Part shown: one piece after another, positions 2,871 to 56,961 of the stretch | Layout of the letters: each line of letters opens with the position of its first letter | Numbering within the stretch: the first letter of the stretch is position 1 | Origin: an uncultured Colwellia sp. | Lineage (GTDB): Bacteria; Pseudomonadota; Gammaproteobacteria; Enterobacterales; Alteromonadaceae | Assembly (NCBI GenBank): GCA_913061475.1 | Contig: CAJXUN010000004.1 | Span: 1-64,000, forward strand | Direction: 5' to 3' | DNA length: 64,000 bases | Translations under genes and position numbers: made by a program | The notes under the pieces: generated by a model | Databases searched by the model: none | Seen by the model: the letters and a program-made list of their open reading frames with translations, nothing else | Told to the model about the DNA's origin: nothing

Positions 2871-4211
2871 ATGATCAAAAACACTTTATTACCTGTTGCT
2901 GAATTTTGTCAGCGTCGACGCGATTTTATTGCGCAGATGCCGGAAAATAGCATAGCGCTAATTTCTGCTGGTAAGGAAGTTACCCGCAGCAATGATACCG
3001 AATACCCTTTTTGCCAACATAAGCACTTTTATTATTTGACCGGTTTTAATGAGCCGGATGCCATGCTGGTGTTAATTAACACTGATAAATTAAACGCAGC
3101 GCAAAGTATTTTATTTTCCCGTGAAAAAGACGCATTGCAAGAAATTTGGCACGGACGACGTGTCGGGCAAGCAAAAGCGATAGATGATTACCAAGTTGAT
3201 GATTGCTTTAGCTTAGCGGAAATTGATCAACAACTGTTGCCGTTAATGTCTGGTAAAAGCGCAGTACTAATTTGCCAACCAGAGCTGGCTGAATTTCAGC
3301 AACAAGTTTTAGATTGGTTGAATAAAGTAAGAAAGGCCGCTCGTAGTGGCATTAAAGCGCCAAATTCATTAATAGACTGCAGTGATATACTCGATGAAAT
3401 GCGCTTGCATAAATCACCTGCAGAGCTCGATATTATGCGACAAGTTAATGTCATCAGTGGCGCGGCTCATCAACGTGCAATGCAAGCAACGAAAACCGGT
3501 AAATTTGAATATCAAATAGAAGCGGAGTTACTGCACGAGTTTGCCATACATGGTGCTCGCTATCCTGCATACGGTTCGATTGTTGCGGGCGGTGATAATG
3601 CCAACATTCTGCATTATACCGATAACGACGACACCTTAAATGATGGTGATTTATTACTGATTGATGCCGGTGGTGAGTTAGCGGGCTATGCTGCTGATAT
3701 TACCCGTACTTTTCCGGTTAATGGACAGTTTAGTGAGCCACAAGCGTTAATTTATCAATTGGTGCTTGATAGCCAAAATCTTGCTATTAACGCGATAAAA
3801 CCTCTGCAAACCTTCGCGCAATTGAATCACATTGTCTGTGATTTTCTCACCCAAGGTTTATATGACTTAGGTGTTCTACAAGGTGACATTACTGAGTTAT
3901 TGGCGAAAAAAGCTTGTAAGAAATATTTTATTCATGGCTTAGGTCATTGGCTCGGATTAGATGTGCATGATGTCGGTGATTATCATTCGAATCAGCAACG
4001 CGAACAACTAAGACCGTTTGCCGCTGGTATGGTGATGACCATTGAACCGGGGATTTACATTCCGCTGAGTGATCATAGCGTTGATGAAAAATGGCGCGGT
4101 ATTGGTGTGCGCATTGAAGACAATATCTTGGTAACAACCAATGGTTTTGAAAATCTAACGATTAATGCTGCTAAAAGCATTGCTGATATTGAGCAGATGA
4201 TGTCACAGTAG
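2871..4211 (+). CDS. pepP: Xaa-Pro aminopeptidase P
   Basis: PepP removes an N-terminal residue that precedes proline, using two manganese ions. The 446-residue chain has the usual N-terminal domain (about 1-175) and a C-terminal pita-bread catalytic domain. All five metal ligands can be placed: D265 and D276 (in IDAGGELAGYAADITRTFPV), H359 (HGLGHWLGLD), E392 (TIEPGIYI) and E416 (RIEDN). It follows ygfB by 61 bases and precedes ubiH, the standard gammaproteobacterial order. Confidence 0.96.
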   Translation: MIKNTLLPVAEFCQRRRDFIAQMPENSIALISAGKEVTRSNDTEYPFCQHKHFYYLTGFNEPDAMLVLINTDKLNAAQSILFSREKDALQEIWHGRRVGQAKAIDDYQVDDCFSLAEIDQQLLPLMSGKSAVLICQPELAEFQQQVLDWLNKVRKAARSGIKAPNSLIDCSDILDEMRLHKSPAELDIMRQVNVISGAAHQRAMQATKTGKFEYQIEAELLHEFAIHGARYPAYGSIVAGGDNANILHYTDNDDTLNDGDLLLIDAGGELAGYAADITRTFPVNGQFSEPQALIYQLVLDSQNLAINAIKPLQTFAQLNHIVCDFLTQGLYDLGVLQGDITELLAKKACKKYFIHGLGHWLGLDVHDVGDYHSNQQREQLRPFAAGMVMTIEPGIYIPLSDHSVDEKWRGIGVRIEDNILVTTNGFENLTINAAKSIADIEQMMSQ

Positions 4212-4276
4212 CTACTTTTTACTATAAATAAATCAGTTGATTAAAAACAAAGTGATCAGTCTGATAAAAGTATAAG

Positions 4277-4334
4277 CTTTAGCGTTAATTATGTCCGTTA
4301 TCAGTCACGCTAAAACGACAAAATAACGCTAAAG
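4277..4334. repeat. Inverted repeat upstream of ubiH
   Basis: Perfect 11-bp arms CTTTAGCGTTA (4277-4287) and TAACGCTAAAG (4324-4334) flank 36 bases in the pepP-ubiH gap. It could be an mRNA hairpin that sets the pepP/ubiH ratio. There is no T-tract, so it is not a classic terminator. Confidence 0.5.
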
Positions 4335-4358
4335 TAGTAGAGAAAATAAAGGCTAACG

Positions 4359-5609
4359 ATGAACTCAAGCTTAAACAAAGACAAGGCTACTAGTACTAAC
4401 CATTTTGATGTGGTTATTGCTGGTGGCGGTTTATCAGGCGCGCTGATGGCGCTGAGCCTATCTACTTTAGTGACTGGCCAGCAAATGCCACTAAAAATAG
4501 CGATTGTCGAAGCTAATCCAATATTAACCGACCCGTCACGCAGTTTTGATGATCGTGTTTTAGCCTTATCGCATGGCAGTGCCGCTTATTTGACTGACGT
4601 AGGAGCATGGCAATATTTATATCAACACGCCGAGCCCATTAACAACATTCATATTTCAGACCGTGGCCATTATGGCAAGGCAAGGTTATATGCAAAGCAA
4701 CAGCAAGTTGATGCCCTCGGCTATGTCGCTGAGATGTCGGTTATTGGTGCAGCTTTACTCAAAGCGTTAGCGACGAAAAATAATATTACTTGGTTTGCCC
4801 CTGACCGTATTGAAAATGTGCAATGGCAAAGTGAGCAAGTCAATGTGGAGCTAAGCTCAGGTGCCCAGTTAACGGCGGCACTATTATTGGGCTGCGATGG
4901 CGTGCAGTCACCCTGTCGTAAGTTTGCCAACATTGCGACCACCAGCCGTGATTATCAACAATCGGCATTAATTGCCAATGTTGCCACCGCCCATCACCAT
5001 AACAATATTGCCTATGAGCGCTTTACCGAAACGGGTCCCATTGCCATGTTGCCGTTGTCGCCAGCGCCAAATAGCAATAAGCAAAGTGCAGGGCGCTGTT
5101 CTTTGGTTTGGACCTTAACACCTGAATTAGCAGAAAAAATGTTGAATTTATCAGATGATGAATTTGCAGAGCAGCTAGCGCAATCTTTTGGTCATTGGCT
5201 TGGCAAGATAACCCATGTCGGTAAACGGGTGACTTATCCATTAACCTTAGTACAAGCAAGTGAGCAGGTATATCATCGTATGGCCTTAATTGGTAACGCC
5301 TCACACACCATACACCCGATTGCCGGACAAGGTTTTAACTTAGGGTTACGTGATGTCAGTGATATGACTCAAGTGATCAAAAATGCCTTAGCACAACAAC
5401 AAGATATCGGCGCCTTTGCGAATTTAATGCAATATGCCCAGGCGCGCCAGCAAGACCAACAACAGGTGATAAGTTTAACCGATTCGTTAGTCACCTTGTT
5501 TTCAAACCAATTACCGCCATTAGTGGCAGGGCGCAATATTGGCTTAAAAGTATTGAATTATGTCCCAATATTGAAAAATGCTTTGGTTAAGAAAACCATG
5601 GGCTATTAA
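4359..5609 (+). CDS. ubiH: 2-octaprenyl-6-methoxyphenol hydroxylase UbiH
   Basis: UbiH is an FAD monooxygenase that hydroxylates C1 of the ubiquinone ring precursor at the membrane-associated Ubi complex. The 416-residue protein shows the N-terminal dinucleotide-binding motif GGGLSGALMALSLS, the mid-chain GCDGVQSPCRK (DG motif) and the FAD ribose motif LIGNASHTIHPIAGQGFNLGLRD. The GN in place of the more common GD is typical of UbiH. It follows pepP and precedes ubiI, and an AAAGG ribosome-binding site precedes the ATG. Confidence 0.94.
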   Translation: MNSSLNKDKATSTNHFDVVIAGGGLSGALMALSLSTLVTGQQMPLKIAIVEANPILTDPSRSFDDRVLALSHGSAAYLTDVGAWQYLYQHAEPINNIHISDRGHYGKARLYAKQQQVDALGYVAEMSVIGAALLKALATKNNITWFAPDRIENVQWQSEQVNVELSSGAQLTAALLLGCDGVQSPCRKFANIATTSRDYQQSALIANVATAHHHNNIAYERFTETGPIAMLPLSPAPNSNKQSAGRCSLVWTLTPELAEKMLNLSDDEFAEQLAQSFGHWLGKITHVGKRVTYPLTLVQASEQVYHRMALIGNASHTIHPIAGQGFNLGLRDVSDMTQVIKNALAQQQDIGAFANLMQYAQARQQDQQQVISLTDSLVTLFSNQLPPLVAGRNIGLKVLNYVPILKNALVKKTMGY

Positions 5610-28417: not shown

Positions 28418-29122
28418 TTAGTTGAAAAGGCCTTTCTGGTAGGCGTCTGCTACTTTATCGAGTATCTCTTTATCGGTTAGATTGAGTTTGTGACGTTTAC
28501 TAAAACCAAAAAAAGTCGTGTTATTTCTAACTTCTTCAAGCGCAATAGGAGACACCTTTAACTTTTTGTTATTGATTTCTTGATAATGAATTTCTAATAG
28601 TGCGGGGCTTATCATTATCAAGTCGATGCGGTCTTTAAGTAATAGAGAAAAGCCAATACGGTCATTTTGCACTGAAATTTTATCTAAAGTGTCATCATTA
28701 TCAAATCGAGGGAAATATGCTGAGCCTCGTGAAACGCCGATGATCTTTCCTTTAAAATCATTATAAGTGTTAATAACGATACCTTCTCTAGAAATAACTT
28801 TCATCAAATCGGCAGGCTTAAATGGTGCGTAAAATGCAAATTCTCTTCTTTGTGCTGTTTTATTAAGTCCAGCAATCACATCAACGTCACCTTTTTTCAA
28901 CATTGCAACACATCTTGCAAAGTTGGGAGACTGCACAAACGTTAATTCTTTGTCTAACACCTCAGCAAGTACTTCAAGTGCTGAAATATGAGTTCCATAC
29001 GGCTTAGTTGCTAAGTATTGATAAGGAGGGTGATCGTCAATACAGGCAACCAGGGCTTTACTTTGCGCTTGTGTAAATGACGCCCAAAACAGGCTCAGCA
29101 AAAGTAAAATAACCTTTTTCAT
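28418..29122 (-). CDS. Periplasmic solute-binding protein, family 3 (orphan)
   Basis: The 234-residue protein has a signal peptide (MKKVILLLLSLFWASFTQAQ) and a family 3 binding fold (ACIDDHPPYQYLATKPYGTHISALEVLAEVL, AMLKKGDVDVIAGLNKT, GKIIGVSRGSAYF). No permease or ATPase gene is next to it, so it may feed a distant transporter or act as a sensory protein. The usual arginine/aspartate ligand pair of amino-acid binders is not clear. Confidence 0.8.
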   Translation of the reverse strand: MKKVILLLLSLFWASFTQAQSKALVACIDDHPPYQYLATKPYGTHISALEVLAEVLDKELTFVQSPNFARCVAMLKKGDVDVIAGLNKTAQRREFAFYAPFKPADLMKVISREGIVINTYNDFKGKIIGVSRGSAYFPRFDNDDTLDKISVQNDRIGFSLLLKDRIDLIMISPALLEIHYQEINNKKLKVSPIALEEVRNNTTFFGFSKRHKLNLTDKEILDKVADAYQKGLFN

Positions 29123-34627: not shown

Positions 34628-34966
34628 TTAATGCATGCTTAAAATAGGTATTTTCATGGCTTCCCTTCTTAATATGTTTTTTGCGCTTTCAGGCGAAACT
34701 TCATAAAATTCATTAACATATTTTTGAGCATTGAAGTGCTTTCTGAGCTTTTTTTTGACCTGACATGGATTTTCGCATGCCATAGAGAAAAATAAAGCAT
34801 ACTGACCAGGACCTTCTGCGGATAAGGATTTTGCATATTCTTCGCTGTCACTTGGCGTGCAGCCAATTCTTATCACGTTTGAAAAAATAGAATGAGTCAT
34901 TATGTAAACGTTGCCAAAAGGGGCATGGTCAACGGGTAGGTTTTCTTGTGATTTTTTTATCTGCAT
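34628..34966 (-). CDS. GIY-YIG-like (T5orf172/MUG113) protein
   Basis: The 112-residue protein has the pattern of a GIY-YIG nuclease fold of the T5orf172 type: FGNVYIMTHS (degenerate VYI for GIY), VIRIGCTPSD (RIG for YIG), and KKLRKHFNAQKYVNEFYEVSP, where Glu could be a metal ligand. The motif residues are partly changed, so catalytic activity is uncertain. A 22-codon extension upstream (to 35029) lacks support, and the ATG at 34966 is chosen. It is divergent from the helicase gene at 35438. Confidence 0.65.
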   Translation of the reverse strand: MQIKKSQENLPVDHAPFGNVYIMTHSIFSNVIRIGCTPSDSEEYAKSLSAEGPGQYALFFSMACENPCQVKKKLRKHFNAQKYVNEFYEVSPESAKNILRREAMKIPILSMH

Positions 34967-35029
34967 AAGTAGGTGCTCTTTGATAAATAATACGTTGAAA
35001 TTTATTGGTTTTATAATTATGAACCCCAT

Positions 35030-35437
35030 GGTAATAACATGATTTTATTCCTTGTTAGGTTTGCATATATTGACTTGGCGCTATGTTTTATGTGCGAGCT
35101 TACAATTCGGATGATGACTTGATATGGATCAATGCTTAATAATGAAAGTGTTGTTCGGTACGCGATATTTACCTGTTGTTTGCCATTAATTAGCGCTAAC
35201 TTTTGCCGCAGGCAGGCAAGGAAAAAACTCAATAATGCTAACGAGGATAAAGCATCATTAGTAAGATTATCGCGGTTAAAAAAAGGAAATGGCATAATTC
35301 TGCATTTTTACCTAGTTTGAGGGTATAATGTTCCGTTCTCAATAATACTTGTGTTATTAAAACCTTAGACCTAGCAATAACGGTGCTTATAAAACCGTTA
35401 ACAATACCAGACAAGGAAAAGCCCTGAGTAGTATGGC
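35030..35437. other. Intergenic region between nuclease-like and helicase genes
   Basis: The gap is about 408 bp. Open frames on both strands here are short, overlap each other and have no domain or ribosome-binding site, so none is called. Helicase and nuclease-like genes are divergent and may share regulation in this region. Confidence 0.45.
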
Positions 35438-36964
35438 ATGAAGATATTAGAAAAAGATTATCAGATTAACAGTGTCCGTAAGGCAATTGACGCAGGAGGG
35501 AACTCCATTATTGCACTTCCTACGGGCGGCGGTAAAAGCATCTGTATACTTAAATTATGCCAAGCAATGTCTGACAAAAAAGTCGTGGTGAGCCTGCGTA
35601 ATGCGGCATTGGTGCCACAGTTATTGCACACGCTTACGGTCAATGGTTTATCGGTGAGTGTGGTTAAGTCAGGCTATAAATATGTCGCTGGCGGTGATGT
35701 TACCTTAGTGATGGAACAGTCATTTAATCGCAGAAAGCACTTAAATATAAACTGTGATGTATTGCTACGTGATGAATATCACGTTGGTTGTATGGGCGGT
35801 GTTTATATCGATATGCGTGAAGAGTTGTCGCCTGATTTAGTTATCGGCCTGACGGCGACCCCAATTGATCGATTGGGCGTTTATATTGATCCGTCGATGA
35901 TCTTGATTGAAGAGACCACCACGAGGTTGTTGATTGAATCTGGCGAGCTAGCCAAACCTGTTTACAAAGTACCCAGCTTATCGCAAGAGATAGATTACAG
36001 CGCGGTTAAAATGTATCGGGGTGACTTTAGTGTTTCGGGCTTAGACCTGATATTGCTCGAACATTGTGCCTTAGTTGCTCAACAAACCGTTGAGGATGCG
36101 CTCTCTCAGGGCCGCAAAGTCATGTTATTTGCCAACTCTATCAAACACGTGGAAGCGTTATCTGATGCCTTTGACTTACTCGGCGTTAAACATGAACGCG
36201 TGCACTCACATCGCTCGATTAGTGATAACGATGAAAGCATACGTAGATACAAGTCGAACGAAGTTAGGCTGATCATTAATATGTCGATGTTAACCATTGG
36301 TTTTGATGATCCTGAGACTGATTGCGTTGTTTTAGCGCGACCAACGAAAATATTGCGCTTGTATTTGCAGATTATCGGCCGATGTTTACGTGCATTTAAA
36401 GGGAAAAAAGACGCCTTAATATTGGATTTAGCCCAATGCATTTCTACTCATGGTTTTGCTGAAGATCACCGCGACTTTACGCGTAAAACCGCTAAATCTG
36501 CGGCAATAATGTCGGAACGCCTAAGCGTAACGAATATCGGTCAGTTTGTTGATGGTGAGTTTACCTTTAACGACTCAATAGAGCGTAAAGTTATCAAGAA
36601 AAAACCAGCCCGCAAGCGCAATAAATCTCGACCTAAGTTAGTGGTGAGTAAAGAGCTTGTTGATAGAGCTGCCAGTAAACGCGCTGAGTCTTTACTTAGG
36701 CTTAATCCTAAAATGGAAAAACTGGTCAGTACTATCGAATTGGTTAATATTGTTTATGACCAACAAGATGAAAGTTACAAGATGCTAGATGAAGTCGGTA
36801 TGGTTAAGTTAGTTGCATTAATCGGTTTTGCCTACAGCGATGATTTAGTGGAGAGCAGCACAACATTGGTGGAAGCGCTACATGATAAAAATAAGTCAAT
36901 TAAGGGTTTATTACCTAAAATTAGCAACTTGATCACGAGCATCACCCGCAAAGACTTAGCATAA
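35438..36964 (+). CDS. Superfamily 2 DNA/RNA helicase
   Basis: This is a 508-residue SF2 helicase of the ResIII/SSL2 type. Motifs: Walker A LPTGGGKS (27-34), motif II RDEYH (a DEYH variant of DEAH, with D before E), motif III GLTATP, and motif VI QIIGRCLRAFKGKK. The C-terminal 120 residues are basic and unassigned (KKPARKRNKSRPKL). It has no nuclease domain of its own, and a GIY-YIG-like gene lies divergently. Role unknown; it may act in replication restart or defence, but that is inference. Confidence 0.82.
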   Translation: MKILEKDYQINSVRKAIDAGGNSIIALPTGGGKSICILKLCQAMSDKKVVVSLRNAALVPQLLHTLTVNGLSVSVVKSGYKYVAGGDVTLVMEQSFNRRKHLNINCDVLLRDEYHVGCMGGVYIDMREELSPDLVIGLTATPIDRLGVYIDPSMILIEETTTRLLIESGELAKPVYKVPSLSQEIDYSAVKMYRGDFSVSGLDLILLEHCALVAQQTVEDALSQGRKVMLFANSIKHVEALSDAFDLLGVKHERVHSHRSISDNDESIRRYKSNEVRLIINMSMLTIGFDDPETDCVVLARPTKILRLYLQIIGRCLRAFKGKKDALILDLAQCISTHGFAEDHRDFTRKTAKSAAIMSERLSVTNIGQFVDGEFTFNDSIERKVIKKKPARKRNKSRPKLVVSKELVDRAASKRAESLLRLNPKMEKLVSTIELVNIVYDQQDESYKMLDEVGMVKLVALIGFAYSDDLVESSTTLVEALHDKNKSIKGLLPKISNLITSITRKDLA

Positions 36965-37033: not shown

Positions 37034-37807
37034 TTACAAAATTTTATAAACTTGTAATACATTCCAACCAACGAATATGGCAATAGCGTAGCTTAGTAGG
37101 GTACCTAGCATCATATATTCAGTTAGCTTCATGTCTTTGTTGTTGGTTAGATCACCAAATCTAAAGATAGTTTTAGTCGCGACTAGAAAACCAATGCCGG
37201 CAAACTGTCCCATAAAGATAAATGAAATAGCTAAACAGCGTTCAATATAGCCAATCCAAGCGCCTGCTGACACCAAACCAATATGCTCATTTTTTTCTGT
37301 TGTAGGGTTTTCTGTAATCGCGCTAGCGTATTGAGTTAGGCTGTCAGTGTGCTTTTTTAACGCTAATGAAATAATTACCGATGCGGGCTTACAAACTAGC
37401 AAGTACGCCATCGCAATGATGATGTTTTTTGCACTTAAAATATTGACAAGAAAGGCTGCGACTTGCCCAATGGTAAAATTGGCAAGGTACGCCCAAATAA
37501 TGCCAATGAGTACTATATGAATAGTCTGCGCTATTAAAAAATAGCGCAGACTATTGCGTCGGTAAGACTGCCAGTAATTAGTGCAAAAATGTGCGAATGA
37601 TAGCAACACAACTGACATTATTGCTGGCAGTAGTGCAATCTCAGATAGTATTAAAATGCTTGTCGTTAGTAGCGTGTGTACTGCCACGTTTTTCCAAAGC
37701 CCGGGCGATTTTATATGATGCTTGTTTCTACATGTCACCCAATGAGTGGGATTGAGATAAAAGTCTGTGATGAAATGGCCAGTCAACAATAAGAGTAACA
37801 GTTCCAT
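37034..37807 (-). CDS. DUF3307 membrane protein
   Basis: The 257-residue polytopic protein starts with LLLLLTGHFITDFYLNPTHWV and HHIKSPGLWKNVAVHTLLTT, the DUF3307 signature (a histidine and aspartate in the first helix, then HT in the second). About six to seven helices follow to the C-terminus. It begins with the A of the SatD stop codon (TAATG), so it is translationally coupled to the upstream gene. DUF3307 and SatD are recurrent neighbours in other genomes. Role unknown. Confidence 0.8.
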   Translation of the reverse strand: MELLLLLLTGHFITDFYLNPTHWVTCRNKHHIKSPGLWKNVAVHTLLTTSILILSEIALLPAIMSVVLLSFAHFCTNYWQSYRRNSLRYFLIAQTIHIVLIGIIWAYLANFTIGQVAAFLVNILSAKNIIIAMAYLLVCKPASVIISLALKKHTDSLTQYASAITENPTTEKNEHIGLVSAGAWIGYIERCLAISFIFMGQFAGIGFLVATKTIFRFGDLTNNKDMKLTEYMMLGTLLSYAIAIFVGWNVLQVYKIL

Positions 37808-38445
37808 TAGCTGTTATCCCTGAGTAAGGTGATTTTTTGGTTGATGGTATTCATGTAATCCCGGACTAGAAAAGCGCCAATATTACCTAATCTATTACTG
37901 ATGTTTTGCCGCGTTGTACCGGTAATTTCTGCTATTTTTTTATGCTCAGCAAAGTCGTTATCGATATATTTATACAATAACTGTGCTTGCGTTTTAGTCA
38001 GGCGGTTCAGTAAATGACTTAAAAATTGTGTTAAAAGCTGAAGTTCAGCATTCGTAGAATCTTGGGTAAAACATAATGACAACTCGCCTCGCTGAGACTT
38101 TTCCAAAGCTCTTCCCGACTCAATAAAAACTGGACCTGATGAGGTATTTGGTTTGTCATCGTAAATGTTATGAGGGCCATAGGCCAATGACAACGTGCAT
38201 TGTATGGGCTTTGATGAAAAATTTGATAAATGTAGGGCAAGCTTAATTAATAAGGTACTTTTTAAGGCGTGAATAGGATCAGGGTACTGGATCTGAAATT
38301 CATCCCCTCGATACACTTCACCAATGGCTTGATATTTTTTATTTGCCGCTTGAAGCTGACTTTTAATACTATCTATAACATTGGTATATTTTTCGTTCGG
38401 CATCTTCGTAGAGTTGACGAGATCCCCCGTTAATACAGCAATCAT
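37807..38445 (-). CDS. SatD family protein with class III cyclase-like features and HTH
   Basis: The 212-residue product matches the SatD family. Its N-terminal half has a pattern I associate with the class III nucleotidyl cyclase fold: VLTGDLVNST (D8, a metal-site position), VYRGDEFQIQYPDPIHAL (D48) and LSLAYGPHN...GPVFIESGRALEKSQRG. The C-terminal part (about 168-190, KKIAEITGTTRQNISNRLGNIG) is a helix-turn-helix. Cyclase activity is a guess, since the catalytic set is incomplete. The frame opens at 38505, but the ATG at 38445 gives the family start MIAVLTGD. Four 18-bp repeats lie directly upstream. Confidence 0.75.
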   Translation of the reverse strand: MIAVLTGDLVNSTKMPNEKYTNVIDSIKSQLQAANKKYQAIGEVYRGDEFQIQYPDPIHALKSTLLIKLALHLSNFSSKPIQCTLSLAYGPHNIYDDKPNTSSGPVFIESGRALEKSQRGELSLCFTQDSTNAELQLLTQFLSHLLNRLTKTQAQLLYKYIDNDFAEHKKIAEITGTTRQNISNRLGNIGAFLVRDYMNTINQKITLLRDNS

Positions 38446-38473
38446 ATTAATTAACCCAATACGGTATTTGTAT

Positions 38474-38563
38474 ACAACTATATTTAATTGCATTTGCAAA
38501 GGCAACTATATTTAATTGCTTATCACTTTGCAACTGTATTCGGTTGCAACTGTATTCTATTGC
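38474..38563. promoter_or_regulatory. Four iteron-like 18-bp repeats upstream of satD
   Basis: Copies ACAACTATATTTAATTGC (38474-38491), GCAACTATATTTAATTGC (38502-38519), GCAACTGTATTCGGTTGC (38530-38547) and GCAACTGTATTCTATTGC (38546-38563). Spacing of starts is 28, 28 and 16 bases, the last two overlapping by two. Each is itself a partial palindrome (GCAA...TTGC). They lie 29-118 bases before the satD start and look like operators, perhaps for SatD's own HTH. Confidence 0.8.
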
Positions 38564-56685: not shown

Positions 56686-56961
56686 ATGTCAGAGATTCTC
56701 ATCCATAACGCAGCAGAGTGTAAGTATGAATATCATATTGATGGTTATGTTGCCTATATAACTTATGATGACCAACAAGGTAACATGCACTTAACCCATA
56801 CCATAGTTCCTGATGCGCTTGCTGGCAAAGGCCTTGCCAAAACATTGCTAGAAGATGTATTGCAACACATTAAAAAAGATAATAAAAAGGCCGTAGCTAA
56901 GTGCTCTTACATTATTAAATATTTAGAAAAAAATCCTCAAGCAAGTGAATTTTTTGTTTGA
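56686..56961 (+). CDS. Small GNAT-like N-acetyltransferase (YjdJ/COG2388 type)
   Basis: The 91-residue protein matches the short GNAT family: TIVPDALAGKGLAKTLLEDVLQHI (acetyl-CoA-binding V-x-x-x-GxGxA-like loop) and the C-terminal KCSYIIKYLEKNPQ. It probably acetylates an unknown small substrate or protein lysine. A GTAAG ribosome-binding site precedes the ATG. It is monocistronic and next to cbpA, divergently placed. Confidence 0.82.
   Translation: MSEILIHNAAECKYEYHIDGYVAYITYDDQQGNMHLTHTIVPDALAGKGLAKTLLEDVLQHIKKDNKKAVAKCSYIIKYLEKNPQASEFFV

Follow-up and report, generated by a model that had tools for sequence, protein, structure and literature searches.

The satD–DUF3307 pair as a candidate self-regulated module behind palindromes spaced 28/29 bp apart

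The gene pair satD–DUF3307 probably forms an autonomous module that regulates itself, a reading we hold with slightly better than even confidence. SatD would be a palm–HTH repressor seated on an array of operators with 28/29-bp spacing and tuned by a nucleotide, and its membrane partner would be a probably harmful output. What is new here are the pairs of palindromes, recognized in sequence, that stand 28/29 bp apart before satD. The fold, the conserved residues, the array geometry, the co-occurrence of the two genes and the restriction of good operators to one locus are likewise read from sequence or predicted from it. Two protein families without known function would thereby be joined into one testable module.

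Palindromic operators before satD

The window, a stretch of 64,000 nucleotides, carries satD on the minus strand (37807..38445). Upstream of the gene and on the same strand lie four 18-bp repeats (GCAAYNNAATAYAGTTGC) with start-to-start spacings of 16, 28 and 28 bp. Operator 1 (GCAATAGAATACAGTTGC, 38546..38563), operator 2 (GCAACCGAATACAGTTGC, 38530..38547) and operator 3 (GCAATTAAATATAGTTGC, 38502..38519) have 0 mismatches, and operator 4 (GCAATTAAATATAGTTGT, 38474..38491) has one. The four 18-bp repeats of the original prediction are therefore real, but they are imperfect palindromes rather than plain direct repeats. Operators 3 and 4 contain the −10 elements of the first and second of two promoter-like sites within the array, TTGCAA-17-TATAGT (38505..38533, minus strand) and TTGCCT-17-TATAGT (38477..38505, minus strand). 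Each site matches the consensus at 9/12 positions, a level at which the region has 10 sites where 5.5 would be expected, which is weak evidence alone. A scan of the own genome found, beyond the four satD operators, one site with a single mismatch; sites with up to two mismatches numbered 16 in all, against 13 for a reversed-pattern control. Since good operators occur almost only at the own locus, its own operon is probably all that SatD regulates, and on the simplest reading of the sequence it would probably bind its own array and little else.

The same geometry was sought at satD loci from other genomes, with control upstream regions drawn from the same loci. The 94 satD upstreams were counted after leaving out L014 and L019, which duplicate the genomes of L005 and L007; they retain nine pairs with start regions at least 90% identical (within L025/L026, L028/L029/L031, L037/L038/L062, L047/L065, L049/L096 and L050/L056), related sequences that are not independent. 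Using even palindrome lengths and 200 nt, 28/29-bp pairs with a score of at least 5 precede satD in 84/94 cases and occur in 1/395 controls, and 28/29 bp is the best of all spacings in 69/94 satD upstreams versus 5/395 controls. When odd and even lengths are both allowed, pairs scoring at least 10 within 230 nt are present in 88/94 satD upstreams and 1/393 controls, and at score 8 in 89/94 and 7/393; the array scan behind the 89/94 demanded a first pair spaced 28 or 29 bp. Spacings of 24/25, 32/33, 36/37 and 40/41 bp reach score 8 in just 7–11 of the same 94 regions. The best pair at any spacing exceeds all 30 shuffles made per locus in 64/96 loci, and from the control upstreams together with these shuffles we judge that the satD palindrome pairs are not due to chance. 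Extension of the arrays from the first pair yielded 97 spacings of 28 bp and 33 of 29 bp, plus single spacings of 27 and 30 bp. A second set of loci, from which L174 was omitted as a copy of L172, has the array in 23/32, two being repeats of earlier loci (L165 and L169, which repeat L008 and L010).

Array-bearing loci span Gammaproteobacteria and Bacteroidota. Five of the 94 loci are without an array at score 8, and high-GC or divergent members mostly lack one. The letters of the palindromes vary by genus—GCAAC..GTTGC, GTAAC..GTTAC, TATCGG..CCGATA, TGACCAA..TTGGTCA and TATACG..CGTATA are examples—while the 28/29-bp spacing stays constant, so that the putative operators follow a ruler conserved in two phyla despite the drift of their letters. 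Some arrays are readable in two registers, of 18 or 20 bp, which leaves the assignment of half-sites uncertain.

Covariation between operators and SatD gives partial support for binding. Corrected for palm and pre-HTH identity, similarity of the recognition helix (approximately residues 179–188 by DSSP of the AlphaFold2 model) correlates with operator similarity at a partial r of 0.17, a value matched by 0/500 permutations; in the corrected comparison the palm gives 0.005. In simple correlations with the operator the recognition helix does not stand out (0.45, versus 0.42 for the palm and 0.50 for the pre-HTH segment), and among distant pairs only the values amount to 0.10, 0.03 and 0.19, respectively. 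Of the SatD columns tested, 179/180 come second and third in predicting how similar operators are, behind column 197, which is not part of the recognition helix. One pair of loci, picked by eye, combines KR (L075) versus NQ (L085) at the start of the recognition helix with GTAAC..GTTAC versus GTAAT..ATTAC in the operators. Taken together, the array counts, the own-genome operators and this partial covariation make self-regulation of SatD through the repeats probable at the sequence level, in line with what had been suggested for the locus.

The two proteins and a putative nucleotide site

SatD of the window comprises 212 amino acids, with a palm domain of the nucleotidyl-cyclase superfamily followed by a C-terminal HTH; its start at ATG 38445 is favoured by homologues, while the mechanical ORF begins at TTG 38505. 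The alignment of 94 SatD proteins, which reaches down to 22% identity with the query, was used to build an AlphaFold2 model with a mean pLDDT of 95. A Foldseek search of the PDB with this model gave 87 matches at E ≤ 0.001, of which the best 50, starting at E 4.4e-6, belong to class III cyclases, and VIA-align likewise fits the palm domain (residues 1–127, 38065..38445, minus strand) to cyclase structures. As modeled, the N-terminal domain of SatD is a palm/nucleotidyl-cyclase fold. The class III-like fold, which had been guessed from the motifs GDLVNST, YRGDEF and GPVFIESGRAL (all found as quoted), is thus borne out by model, Foldseek and VIA-align in agreement. GGDEF, class III and Cas10 palm domains tie in VIA-align, with Z of 12.4–13.5, and for this reason a structural separation among the three was dropped. 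A profile search aligned cyclase Ma1120 to the N-terminal half of SatD (E 0.013, weak alone) and HTH proteins to the C-terminal part, and 13 cyclase domains from relatives, compared profile to profile with SatD, yielded a probability of 87%. GGDEF and Cas10 palms resemble SatD to the extent of these Z-scores, which fall in the class III range, but SatD differs from GGDEF proteins in having RGD[SE]F in place of the GG[DE]EF signature, and the Pfam GGDEF model has no match to the window SatD at E ≤ 1. The whole own genome (G000) has 49 matches to GGDEF and none to class III cyclases at E ≤ 0.001.

Nine positions, D8, S12, R46, G47, D48, F50, Q51, G104 and G111, are invariant in 94/94 aligned SatDs. 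Two of these are metal-type Asp residues that align with Ma1120: Asp8 on strand 1 (38422..38424, minus strand) corresponds to the FTD of the cyclase, and D48 lies in the RGDEFQ hairpin (residues 46–51, 38293..38310, minus strand), which aligns with SQGDGF. The R46-G47-D48-[SE]-F50 motif is present in 93/94, the one remaining SatD having A at the [SE] position. The helical region with the HTH (residues 132–205 by DSSP of the model, 37831..38052, minus strand) is matched, weakly, by the profiles of YlxM and sigma-70 region 4, and a C-terminal helix-turn-helix, also predicted earlier, is supported by the profile searches. SatD resembles the PF16264 SatD family, named from the sat operon of Streptococcus mutans, in that 59/94 aligned members match this model at E ≤ 0.01 (best 4.1e-14); the window SatD has no PF16264 match at E ≤ 1, nor does its genome at E ≤ 0.01. 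Unlike in that operon, the partner of satD in the loci studied here is DUF3307 (91/96). Two divergent SatDs (L211 2253–2984 and L212 544–1185) have the hairpin TLGDE[LF]QAV; the partner adjoining the former matches only the C-terminal half of DUF3307, and that adjoining the latter matches from residue 39. In G153 the flagged SatD stop closes a frame that is otherwise complete.

The DUF3307 gene (37034..37807, minus strand) encodes a polytopic membrane protein of 257 amino acids. Its start overlaps the satD stop by one base as TAATG (offset −1), and this overlap, the survey of partners and the partner model uphold the coupling of satD to a polytopic DUF3307 protein. The window protein matches PF11750 with E 5.1e-16 and 59.3 bits against a curated cut-off of 23; the match covers residues 3–113 (37469..37804, minus strand), a half with conserved H/D/Q-rich positions by column counts, several of them substituted in the window copy. 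The most conserved part is the C-terminal half (residues 172–256, 37040..37294, minus strand), where G182, G186, E189, R190, G206, K212, R216, E230, Y231, G235 and S239 are invariant in 90/90 partners and mean column entropy is 1.54 bits versus 2.30 in the N-terminal half. The predicted model (pLDDT 90) is all-helical and has no PDB match at E ≤ 0.001, which does not prove a new fold. A soluble sensor or ligand domain is absent from the model, and Pfam at E ≤ 1 gives DUF3307 only. Within the DUF3307 coding sequence of the window (37520–37555) lies a perfect 16-bp inverted repeat with a 4-nt loop.

The site and its partner bear on whether SatD might be an active cyclase or nucleotide synthase whose product gates DUF3307, with autoregulation secondary—a principle like that of Pycsar, though not membership in it. 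The cyclase fold with both metal-type Asp invariant, as in the class III cyclases Ma1120, Cya2 and Rv1625c, would suit such activity, as would the close pairing with a membrane protein. In class III cyclases a Lys chooses the base, and SatD differs from them at this very position before the GD hairpin: Ma1120 has K, whereas the SatDs have I (75), V (18) or L (1), that is, no Lys in 94/94. The transition-state Asn/Arg positions of helix 4 (residues 105–116), as read by eye, are not kept either (108 is variable and R112 is present in 47/94; hhalign aligned this helix differently). The Pfam cyclase model (PF00211) fails to match the window SatD at E ≤ 1, an HTH is fused to the palm, and the partner model offers no soluble domain for a ligand. 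We consider an active synthase unlikely, and prefer the reading in which the palm of a self-regulating repressor would bind, and perhaps convert, a nucleotide.

Pairing, distribution and neighborhood

DUF3307 follows satD within a strict window in 91/96 loci; these loci were found through SatD, and three of them are viral contigs and two come from duplicate genomes. Of the other five, L012 carries a broken partner and L082 nothing but a remnant, and in L060 SatD is present and no partner was found; in L032 and L059 the longest frame of the partner begins further upstream, inside satD. One of the 91, L038, has its partner split into two frames. The remnant in L082 (6603–6761) follows an intact SatD and consists of 53 codons with both DUF3307 ends, the middle missing. 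In the order, 247 genomes were surveyed: SatD occurs in 42 of them, and a long DUF3307 in exactly these 42. With positions compared by eye, the two genes adjoin on a single contig in 41 genomes, and in G095 they lie at the ends of contigs. In the class survey of 369 genomes, the DUF3307 profile gave 22 matches. All ten long or C-half DUF3307 proteins among them adjoin SatD (10/10, with two SatDs found by a more sensitive search only), and the C-terminal half was found in this survey beside SatD only. The other 12 matches cover just the N-terminal part, in open frames of 114–181 amino acids; no SatD accompanies them at E ≤ 1e-6, with four of the 12 checked a second time. Neither survey, of order or class, found an intact full-length DUF3307 without SatD.

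The pair had been considered possibly housekeeping, which fits poorly with its patchy distribution (42/247 genomes of the order) and its position at three or more places in one genus. Among near genomes satD is present in 13/60, own included. Seven genomes of the genus that were compared carry the unit at no fewer than three places: beside helicase and exonuclease-like genes in G000, G002 and G004, near the counterpart of window 56686–56961 in G003, G005 and G016, and next to the counterpart of window 28418–29122 in G015. No neighbor is constant, with a maximum of 4 loci sharing one among 37 loci from diverse genera. Around the unit the window presumably contains ordinary genes, e.g. for glycine cleavage and dnaK, as named from their translations. 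The helicase neighbor at 35438–36964 was ruled out as part of the unit, as an 89% identical copy in G003 lies on a contig other than that of satD. In the window this RadD/YejH-like helicase adjoins a GIY-YIG-like small gene (34628–36964 in all; MUG113, PADLOC PDC-S57 at E 1.9e-9), and near-identical helicases occur in G002, G003 and G004, that of G003 away from satD.

A tblastn search of a phage collection returned no match at E ≤ 0.01. In IMG/VR a first SatD scan found none, a SatD profile scan 3 contigs and a DUF3307 scan 8, of which three are common with the profile scan and some may be host stretches; SatD adjoins the partner in 7/8 of the latter. The exception is L203, a viral contig on which an N-truncated partner (3914–4531) occurs and SatD is absent. 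Plasmids gave 6 records, every one below 60% identity.

A cyclase-fold protein beside a membrane protein is also the layout of Pycsar (PycC and PycTM), a system covered in PMC11224242, to which the pair had initially been likened. The satD pair differs from it by the HTH of SatD, the operator array, the DUF3307 partner and weak or absent PADLOC matches. PADLOC-DB includes PycC models, and the PycTM effector carries a cyclic-nucleotide receptor domain. SatD matches only CARF3, PDC-S01 and PDC-M06B in PADLOC, with a best E of 7.2e-4, and the partner has no match at E ≤ 1; no cyclic-nucleotide receptor domain was found in the partner by Pfam, by PADLOC or in its all-helical model. Pycsar membership was dropped after the Pfam and PADLOC searches, the lack of a sensor domain and of a recurrent neighbor also counting against a Pycsar-type layout. 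Nor did satD–DUF3307 cluster with defence genes in any clear or consistent way among the 37 diverse loci. At E ≤ 1e-10, PADLOC covered 74/147 near neighbors, defined as the first gene on each side (in L094 the second upstream ORF, as the first overlaps satD), and 74/125 far neighbors. Near neighbors matched 108 PADLOC families and far neighbors 5; the best 25 of the 108 match one member each, including a type I specificity subunit and AbiEi. PADLOC families may be enriched near satD.

Restraint of the partner and rival readings

In the reading we prefer, that of a self-regulated repressor and its output, we infer DNA binding, repression as its sign, nucleotide binding and toxicity of the partner. 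The HTH of SatD would bind successive palindromic operators 28/29 bp apart, and since this distance is approximately 2.7 helical turns, neighboring dimers would sit about a third of a turn from each other around the helix. SatD on the array would cover the promoters and so repress its own operon, mainly that operon alone, though it may activate instead. A nucleotide would be bound, and perhaps converted, at the palm site, where both metal-type Asp and the invariant R/Q/S/G set lie; it would either tune DNA binding or act on DUF3307. This polytopic protein, with a conserved C-terminal half that is tied to SatD, would be the output and probably harmful when unrestrained.

The excerpted text of a Streptococcus pyogenes study (PMC11323703) names satD as the sole accessory gene in the top essentiality range and reports it in 178/249 genomes. 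If the product of a gene holds a harmful partner in check, strains that carry the gene should need it although the species as a whole can do without it, and the module proposed here may offer a reason for that report. These data suggest that SatD restrains something harmful, the membrane partner being a candidate; the essentiality could alternatively come from polar effects or from the eggNOG annotation. A broken DUF3307 stands beside an intact SatD in G259, L038 and L082, three cases only, some of them from drafts or MAGs in which sequence error is possible. G001/L012 combines a broken partner with a C-terminally shortened SatD, and no array was found there.

The unit resembles autoregulated toxin–antitoxin and plasmid-partition repressors in being a two-gene unit with putative binding of tandem palindromes before its own gene. 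Such repressors are autoregulated and have operator arrays. As in toxin–antitoxin systems the two genes co-occur strictly, in 42/42 carriers of the order and for 10/10 long or C-half partners of the class, L060 and L082 being the exceptions among the 96 loci; the palm domain and the polytopic partner set the satD unit apart. A tentative extension, which we regard as rather doubtful, is a nucleotide-gated addiction or abortive module: the cyclase-fold repressor would polymerize on its 28-bp-phased array and read or make a nucleotide, and a metabolic or phage cue would free a membrane-damaging partner. If true, such a module would account for the fact that strains with satD need it and many others lack it.

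Also unlikely in our view is that DUF3307 is a membrane sensor that sequesters and releases SatD as an activator, making the pair a one-operon signaling circuit and not a toxic module. Such a circuit would agree with the strict pairing and translational overlap and with operators found almost only at the own promoter, and the conserved charged residues of the membrane half could form the interface; yet the −10-like elements within the operators favour repression, and the report of an essential accessory satD fits a restraining role better. That the palm is a dead dimerization scaffold, and the pair an ordinary accessory transporter with its repressor, is very improbable: class III signature residues are partly lost and no function for the pair appears among the literature matches listed, but nine positions around the putative site that are invariant in 94/94 proteins do not look like a decaying site. 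Among the matches listed in open-licence full-text literature, none concerns the fold of SatD, its operators or the SatD–DUF3307 pair. In the excerpted part of a lysozyme transcriptome study (PMC5786311), satD of strain UCN 34 is given under decreased expression, at 0.47-fold.
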